From Mesorhizobium sp. YIM 152430 (lineage in GTDB: Bacteria; Pseudomonadota; Alphaproteobacteria; Rhizobiales; Rhizobiaceae), in contig NZ_JARGES010000020.1 in NCBI RefSeq assembly GCF_029210365.1, forward strand, positions 186,001-250,000: 64,000 nt of DNA, given 5' to 3'. Each line of letters begins with the position of its first letter. Within the stretch, counting starts at the first letter, position 1. The notes beneath the pieces were generated by a model. It saw only the letters and a program-made list of their open reading frames with translations, made no database searches and was not told the origin of the DNA. Below, piece by piece: positions 32,945 through 33,166 of the stretch. The translations under genes were made by a program, and so were the position numbers.

Positions 32945-32976
32945 GAAAAAGGGCCGGTCTCGCCGACCGGCCCTTC
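32945..32976 (-). terminator. intrinsic terminator, strongest on the minus strand
   Basis: AAGGGCCGGTC and GACCGGCCCTT pair over 11 bp with a 5-base loop (32949-32959 with 32965-32975). Minus-strand reading gives a T-run right after the stem; on the plus strand only two T follow. It ends the transcript of the 22-codon gene and may also stop read-through from the nuclease gene. Confidence 0.8.
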
Positions 32977-33032
32977 CGTGTCTTTATCCGCAGCGCGGCA
33001 TCCGGGTCAGGCCCGGCCGCGCATCAACCCCG

Positions 33033-33101
33033 TCAGGAAGGCTGCTTCCCGAAAGGGCGATCCGCTCGGGCCACGCTACGGCTAACGATAACACTCGACA
33101 T
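33033..33101 (-). CDS. 22-residue small protein with extended Shine-Dalgarno sequence
   Basis: I do not recognise a named family. The peptide begins MSSVIVSRSVARADRP and ends FGKQPS. The case for a real gene is its signals. AAGGAGGTGATCC (minus strand, 33115-33103) complements the 16S rRNA 3' end over 13 bases, with AGGAGG seven bases before the ATG. A TTGTCA-N17-CACATT promoter lies about 40 bases further upstream, and a strong terminator lies about 60 bases after the stop. The peptide is basic (several Arg, one Lys) with no membrane segment. It lies 84 bases downstream of an MFS gene on the same strand. It could be a small functional protein, a leader peptide or part of a regulatory RNA. 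Confidence 0.6.
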   Translation of the reverse strand: MSSVIVSRSVARADRPFGKQPS

Positions 33102-33137
33102 CGGATCACCTCCTTCCAGTTCGTTGAACACAAGCCG

Positions 33138-33166
33138 AATGTGGGACACATCCGCCGCCATGACAA
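33138..33166 (-). promoter_or_regulatory. candidate promoter of the 22-codon gene
   Basis: Minus-strand TTGTCA (33166-33161) and CACATT (33143-33138) are separated by exactly 17 bases. This predicts a start near 33131 and a short leader of about 30 bases before the ATG at 33101. Confidence 0.45.

Follow-up and report, generated by a model that had tools for sequence, protein, structure and literature searches.

A candidate class-wide RNA gene of the Alphaproteobacteria combining a conserved short reading frame, a drifting peptide and a covarying closing helix

Genes of a few tens of codons tend to escape protein gene callers because of their size. A candidate of this kind lies in Mesorhizobium sp. 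YIM 152430, on the minus strand of the 64,000-nucleotide stretch of DNA analysed here and hereafter referred to as the window (contig NZ_JARGES010000020.1, positions 186,001 to 250,000). An initial annotation, made from the sequence alone, described there a 22-codon frame with unusually good expression signals and proposed a highly translated micro-protein, a leader peptide or a dual-function RNA. This locus raises the question of whether the short frame belongs to a real gene and, if so, whether its peptide, a neighbouring gene or the passage of ribosomes along its RNA accounts for what is conserved.

Layout, distribution and transcription unit

The main signals of the initial annotation, a Shine-Dalgarno (SD) sequence with 13 bases complementary to the 3' end of 16S rRNA, a 22-codon frame and a hairpin followed by a T-run, were all recovered. 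The element comprises the following features:

33138..33166, minus strand: promoter-like site TTGTCA-N17-CACATT, read directly (TTGTCA at 33166-33161, CACATT at 33143-33138)
33116..33131, minus strand: 5' leader with TTCAAC, read from the sequence, and a putative RNA start near 33131
33103..33115, minus strand: extended SD AAGGAGGTGATCC, with a complementarity of 13 bases to the 3' end of 16S rRNA
33033..33101, minus strand: 22-codon frame MSSVIVSRSVARADRPFGKQPS, ATG at 33101, stop ending at 33033
33087..33094, minus strand: 5' strand of the putative consensus helix P1, in codons 3-5, from covariation across loci with pre-terminator bases
32978..32988, minus strand: 3' strand of the putative consensus helix P1, directly before the terminator
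33070..33081, minus strand: 5' strand of a predicted 12-pair helix above P1, partner at about 32988-32999, in the minimum-free-energy and centroid folds
33036..33050, minus strand: predicted stem-loop GGGAAG-CAGC-CUUCC adjoining the stop codon, pair probability 0.96-1.0
32946..32977, minus strand: intrinsic terminator, 13-pair hairpin plus five T, end at about 32946
32950..33125, minus strand: sub-threshold full-length match to RF01867 (CC2171), 39.6 bits

An SD such as AAGGAGGTGATCC is complementary to the 3' end of 16S rRNA. In the window, this 13-mer has a single match without mismatch and three matches at up to two mismatches, versus 1.14 expected. The word AAGGAGGTGATCYNRTG occurs once in the 3.83-Mb genome, a single copy that rules out a repeat element.

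Searches at increasing taxonomic distance retrieved the element or its start site in a large number of genomes. A blastn search with a 175-base query matched 29 of 61 genomes, including its own, two of the 29 (L026 and L030) matching another stretch. At the level of the order, a 24-mer spanning the SD, the start codon and the two codons after it, one mismatch being tolerated, was found in 75 of 297 genomes with one match each, and the reversed pattern matched none of the same 297. The exact word AAGGAGGTGATCYNRTG was found in 54 of 289 genomes of the class, always as a single match, nine of the 54 being judged doubtful or belonging to other genes. In a sample of the phylum, 48 of 86 genomes within the class carried it versus 6 of 213 beyond the class, as counted from the rows, and the loci of 12 class genomes (L278-L287, L294-L297; 13 places) were inspected. 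One class genome of this sample (L296) has a second match, located ahead of a long frame, and the six matches beyond the class all precede longer genes, with frames of 141-293 codons. In four genomes beyond the class (L288-L291), the SD-start word lies ahead of similar genes of 292-293 codons. From their translations, we presume that these genes resemble beta subunits of 2-oxoacid:ferredoxin oxidoreductases. In L155 and L079 the SD word leads into frames of 56-57 codons with a signal-like N-terminus, which resemble small exported proteins and fall outside the micro-gene pattern.

Within the family, the standard form was found in 145 of 247 genomes and a form with one extra SD base in 35 of 247; neither pattern matched in the 12 genomes of 1-2 Mb of this sample. 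Positive genomes include, over 27 records, the genera Aureimonas, Aurantimonas, Jiella, Fulvimarina, Consotaella and Mangrovicella, one of the 27 being assigned to Rhizobiaceae without a genus. In the class, the size of the positive genomes ranges from 1.4 Mb, in AT-rich genomes (L088-L090), to 6-8 Mb.

The comparative counts given below rest mainly on 202 loci, consisting of 150 loci minus nine dropped by eye (L061, L062, L068, L079, L136, L139, L144, L149 and L155, with frames of 25, 25, 39, 57, 27, 27, 32, 22 and 56 aa, all among the 54 class genomes with AAGGAGGTGATCYNRTG), plus 69 loci minus seven duplicates and L216, whose match lies inside a gene; L278-L297 are outside this set. As the loci were mostly picked by SD-plus-start patterns, they do not allow the conservation of the SD and start to be measured; the 24-mer and family patterns (one mismatch allowed) prescribed TC at codon 2, as did the script that extracted the 69 loci, whereas the exact AAGGAGGTGATCYNRTG search of the class left this codon free. 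A lack of conservation of the frame and SD in related genomes had been named beforehand as what would speak against the initial annotation, and the comparison with relatives revealed no such lack.

The promoter proposed by the initial annotation is present as a sequence and is not accepted by a simple sigma-70 scan, which found 0 promoters at the TTGTCA-N17-CACATT site. Of 201 related loci, 152 have a TTG beginning 50-52 bases ahead of the SD, a recurring position that supports the -35 box. A -10-like box lies 16-18 bases further on in 184 of 201 loci, a weaker evidence since it was placed by best fit. In the leader (201 loci), conservation reaches 0.80 for A at -9, 0.81 for A at -5 and 0.80/0.92 for GA at -2/-1. 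After the frame, a strong terminator (hairpin energy under -15 kcal/mol and five or more T among 8 bases) was found in 181 of the 202 loci, versus 2 of 202 shuffled sequences. The silent promoter scan is the point that would favour a chance or artefactual origin of the element, as a good-looking SD in an intergenic gap. This explanation is contradicted by the class-wide recurrence, the shuffled controls and the covariation described below, and is hardly credible.

In the window, the element is preceded on the same strand by a gene for an MFS/Atg22-like transporter and followed by a convergent nuclease-like gene. The window's MFS gene is upstream of the element in 5 of 202 loci, all from the genus of the window's organism; the window's nuclease-like and transglutaminase-like genes each occur on the downstream side in 5 of 202 loci and are invariably encoded on the opposite strand. 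When loci were linked by any homologous ORF lying on the same side, they formed 82 groups upstream (the largest of 47 and 32 loci) and 84 downstream (the largest of 41 and 33). The gene context is partly common within lineages and differs between lineages, which speaks against the leader of one fixed gene. The element was rejected as a leader of the MFS or nuclease-like gene, these neighbours each recurring in 5 of 202 loci. The leader peptide suggested initially, or an attenuator, is not supported for the same reason, together with the lack of a conserved downstream gene in the same orientation and the convergent orientation of the next gene in the window. An earlier neighbour test by ORF length alone (263 clusters, largest of 21; downstream ORF on the same strand in 82, on the opposite strand in 107 and absent in 13 of the 202 loci) missed real neighbours of the window's locus and is not relied on.

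Two observations concern the immediate surroundings of the element. The terminator search also recognises the hairpin on the plus strand (32949-32975), where it could serve the convergent nuclease-like gene, and in L060 an FMN riboswitch (RF00050, 102.8 bits; L060:1764-1918, plus strand) directly follows the micro-gene.

Relation to the CC2171 family and to known systems

Searched against Rfam at curated cut-offs, the whole window gave no match. A permissive search aligned the element with RF01867 over model positions 1-159 of 159, with 39.6 bits (E 3.1e-7) versus a gathering score of 75. All of the 14 related loci compared with this model also matched it over positions 1-159, with 28.8-47.4 bits and E from 5.6e-7 to 0.022. 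Among 61 genomes, 41 matched RF01867 at E<=0.1, one of them above the cut-off and at least one by chance (L216, inside a gene). Four of 14 control genomes matched at E<=0.1, Caulobacter vibrioides and three unrelated ones, and one of these four, presumably Caulobacter, scored above the cut-off. The RF01867 consensus reads AAAGGAGGUGAUCC-A-GUG-UCU-CAU-UGU-CAU, a start site as in the VSHCH-type loci found here, so that the RNA typed by Rfam as an sRNA carries the start site too. The window's element resembles RF01867 in that it aligns over the full length, from the SD and the start region to the terminator hairpin, including the bases of the putative closing helix; it differs in falling below the cut-off, and in that RF01867 is classified by Rfam among the sRNA genes. 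On these comparisons the putative RNA family is identified with the CC2171 family of Rfam, wider than Rfam draws it. The initial statement that the peptide matches no family stands for proteins, as none of four peptides matched Pfam or NCBIfam at E<=1, and falls for the RNA given the sub-threshold full-length match to RF01867. A weak match to RF02503 on the plus strand was discarded, since it spans the terminator hairpin and T run only.

Mesorhizobium huakuii is taken here as a member of the bacterial family of the window's organism, and the 2008 survey of Caulobacter sRNAs (Landt 2008) as the source of CC2171. RNA-seq of M. huakuii revealed a 215-base transcript, MH_s33, annotated as RF01867 (PMC5596092), which likens it to the window's element; the parts of that article covered here describe no reading frame or mechanism. 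In the Rfam 15 paper, RF01867 gains one covarying pair (PMC11701678). Within the portions of the literature covered by the search, RF01867 appeared in these two sources only, as a table row in the Rfam 15 paper, and one of six SD-plus-start words was found, in a paper on 16S processing. Ribosome profiling of Caulobacter described intergenic ncRNA regions as untranslated with the exception of two earlier ncRNAs, whose names are absent from the part of the text covered (PMC4117421). Among translated small RNAs, rnTrpL/peTrpL of S. meliloti is, in the available part of PMC10117765, similar to the window's element in being a small RNA with a short frame, in its case of 14 codons and translated, and dissimilar in being a leaderless tryptophan attenuator.

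Reading frame and encoded peptide

In 198 of the 202 loci the first in-frame stop falls at 18-30 codons, with a mean of 24.2 and an sd of 2.5, and in none of them does it precede codon 15. Shuffling the bodies of the same loci left a mean of about 42 with a stop in this range and a maximum of 59 (200 shuffles). Among the non-redundant loci, 74 of 76 have their stop at 18-30 codons versus 15.8 when shuffled (maximum 28), and the other two frames stop there in 19 and 16 of the 202 loci. Frames in this range account for 203 of 211 when the nine doubtful loci are retained and for 46 of 53 when the loci of the AAGGAGGTGATCYNRTG class search are taken alone. Where the pattern left codon 2 free, 46 of 53 loci have TCN there; over a wider set it is found in 141 of 150 loci, several of the search patterns having favoured TC. 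The comparison shows, at the sequence level, a recurring promoter-like box, a terminator, an extended SD, a start followed mostly by a Ser-TCN codon and a frame of 24 +/- 2.5 codons.

The shortest member seen (L297:1054, plus strand) has only 14 codons and belongs to a 6.9-Mb genome from another family of the order. Three loci from two families (L140, L141 and L164) have an 18-codon frame and, between the frame and the terminator, a stretch resembling the 16S 3' end (GATCCCACCTCCTTA in L140).

The constancy of the stop bears on the idea of a pure 30S decoy, in which the RNA would mimic an ideal start site and hold small subunits, elongation being irrelevant, as 6S RNA holds RNA polymerase. A long SD word present once per positive class genome fits such a decoy, as does the closing helix from codon 3, presumably near the mouth of the mRNA channel. 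A decoy would, however, need no stop at 18-30 codons, and the extra SD base in 35 of 247 family genomes should weaken its SD. We regard it as highly improbable.

Contrasting with the constancy of the frame, the peptide drifts. Over 457 locus pairs, 72-97% identical and not independent of each other, pN/pS was 1.63 for codons 3-5 (the P1 strand), 0.99 for codons 6-17 and 1.01 from codon 18 to the end; the value of 0.04 for codon 2 is partly due to construction, most loci having been chosen with TC there. In codons 6-16 of 21 rhizobial sequences, position 2 varies like position 3 (0.91 versus 0.86 bits). RNA structure may constrain synonymous sites and account in part for a pN/pS near 1. The comparison shows a frame kept under selection, and an amino-acid sequence beyond codon 5 without visible constraint; the conserved micro-protein of the initial annotation is not borne out by the ratios beyond codon 5. 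Its description of the peptide as basic is correct for the window's copy and does not extend to the family, where charge is local and the pI of the peptides of the 69 inspected family loci varies from 4.05 to 12.0.

A functional micro-protein, i.e. a peptide of 20-29 residues (MSS...QP...) acting in the cell and for which the RNA would be the small mRNA, would account for the fixed frame length and for the QP motif present near the peptide end and in-frame in many lineages. This motif coincides with a CARC-type stem-loop, found in 153 of the 202 loci and distributed over the three frames relative to the start in 137, 10 and 6 cases, and its overlap with a stem-loop read in other frames in some lineages weakens the argument. 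Family members with the extra SD base encode peptides of 23-24 aa, several with a pI of 4.05-4.7. Comparable values are reported for SEP1 of S. meliloti, which has 23 aa, a pI of 4.18 and a conservation in Rhizobiaceae (PMC10117765). According to the part of that source covered here, SEP1 has the top translation efficiency of 54 high-confidence non-annotated small ORFs and was detected by a Western signal and one peptide-spectrum match in mass spectrometry (PMC10117765). SEP1 fits the 23-24 aa members in length, acidity, family range and translation efficiency, a likeness of description and not of sequence, so that its membership in the RF01867-like family is plausible, and its high translation would favour a micro-protein. 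Together with the pN/pS of about 1 beyond codon 5, the rhizobial middle codons, in which position 2 is as variable as position 3, argue against a functional peptide, which we consider decidedly unlikely.

What remains of the initial annotation is a real, conserved and stand-alone micro-gene with a translated appearance, the dual-function RNA being one of the options it had listed. The comparative data depict a putative RNA of about 160-210 bases, mostly single-copy and independently transcribed, distributed across the Alphaproteobacteria, and the window's element would be its copy of this class-wide RNA gene.

RNA folding and a possible role of ribosome passage

The RNA from 33131 to 32945 is predicted to fold at -98.9 kcal/mol (z -5.2), none of 200 shuffled sequences folding as well. 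Across loci, codons 3-5 can pair with the pre-terminator bases through changing sequences, such as AGUGAU/AUCAC, AAUGAG/CUCAU, CAUUGUC/GACAAUG, CAUGGU/ACCAUG and an AU-rich form in the 1.4-Mb genomes. In an alignment whose two halves were aligned independently, three of the top four column pairs by mutual information lie on one antidiagonal (ORF columns 12, 8 and 10 with columns 24, 28 and 26), the third rank being held by a pair off this antidiagonal (ORF 6 with column 28). The excess on the P1 diagonal was 0.80, whereas no diagonal exceeded 0.45 when the rows were permuted 1000 times. This calculation used 76 non-redundant loci, filtered for redundancy from an alignment of 201 loci whose terminators were accepted under a less strict criterion, one that 34 of 202 shuffled sequences satisfy as well. 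The pairing energies rest on a stricter terminator search, successful in 100 of 141 loci; 14 of these were taken out by eye, and in the resulting 86 loci the P1 strands pair with their own partners at -9.46 versus -6.81 +/- 0.24 kcal/mol with permuted ones. Relatedness is ignored in these permutations, which do not give exact probabilities. When partners were swapped locus by locus, a median of 0.16 of the foreign partners paired equally well or better, and 23% of the loci were at or below 0.05. In the isolated fold of the window's copy the lower P1 pairs have probabilities of about 0.002 or less; the 12-pair helix above P1 and the stem-loop adjoining the stop are firmly predicted. Taken over the loci, the putative helix P1 between codons 3-5 and the pre-terminator bases covaries, and the comparison shows this predicted helix enclosing the body of the RNA, starting at codon 3, together with a stem-loop next to the stop.

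A second type of complementarity concerns the SD itself. In 143 loci, the downstream bases complement their own SD above shuffled sequences (mean z -1.05), 24% of the loci being at p<=0.05. Of the 28 loci with a GGAAGG SD, 26 carry CCTTCC near the stop and none carries CCTCC, whereas among 170 loci with a GGAGG SD, just 12 carry CCTCC and 14 CCTTCC. From this distribution, the anti-SD stretches are taken as an addition of some lineages. SD sequestration as the main mechanism was set aside, its enrichment being uneven between lineages, and in the predicted fold of the window the SD is unpaired with the CGGAUCGCC stretch (p 0).

These stretches are relevant to a dual-function RNA, combining a base-pairing sRNA with a translated frame, in which the part acting in trans would be the pre-terminator strand of P1 or CCUCC/CCUUCC, exposed by ribosomes. 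Terminators with a T run are typical of Hfq-type sRNAs, and the presence of one here is in favour of this hypothesis, as are the downstream complementarity to the SD and the match between GGAAGG and CCTTCC. The latter change may nevertheless have occurred just once, within a part of the family, and the small share of GGAGG loci with either stretch also counts against the hypothesis. We regard a dual function as unlikely; among the rivals of our favoured reading it comes first, ahead of the micro-protein and the pure 30S decoy.

We favour the reading of a translated, structured and stand-alone RNA, for which the entry and transit of ribosomes matter more than the peptide and which switches with ribosome occupancy, and would give it an even chance of being correct. 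The RNA would really be translated, its peptide being a by-product. A ribosome starting at the strong SD would open P1 at codon 3, then run about 24 codons through the folded body, opening the stem-loop, and termination would place it beside that stem-loop. In the absence of ribosomes the body would close again, which would give two states, one closed and free of ribosomes, the other open and occupied by them. The RNA could in this way report how readily 30S subunits initiate, and the signal might be passed on via the opened RNA, by its stability, its processing or its pairing with other RNAs. Besides the conservation, the kept frame, the drifting peptide, the covariation of P1 and the changing neighbours, the MH_s33 transcript of M. 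huakuii counts in favour of this reading (PMC5596092). Several points oppose it: the lower P1 pairs are unfavoured in the own fold of the window's copy, the swap test is modest per locus (median 0.16), the neutral pN/pS may owe something to RNA structure and comes from pairs that are not independent, the family is an sRNA in the Rfam classification, and the part covered of the Caulobacter profiling study calls intergenic ncRNA regions untranslated, with two exceptions (PMC4117421).

The closest parallel for such a logic is the model proposed by the authors of a study on the leader of a DUF1127 gene in S. meliloti, to which the putative mechanism is similar by analogy (PMC12218461). In the part of that study covered here, translation of a short upstream ORF sets the state of the RNA, the ribosome-binding site can pair with early codons and a sensing of ribosome availability is proposed (PMC12218461). 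This upstream ORF lies in the leader of its downstream gene, in contrast to the window's element, which ends at a terminator of its own and is followed by a convergent gene.

It is conceivable, although we hold this extension to be rather doubtful, that the selected product is ribosome passage itself, with the start, frame length and stop kept class-wide and the peptide neutral, the RNA acting as a stand-alone ribosome-availability sensor. To our knowledge, there is no named precedent for a stand-alone sensor RNA of this kind.

An RNA filed as non-coding appears to be built for translation and not for its peptide. It would offer a testable case of a small gene whose function is the act of translation, for which Caulobacter, Sinorhizobium and Mesorhizobium are tractable hosts.
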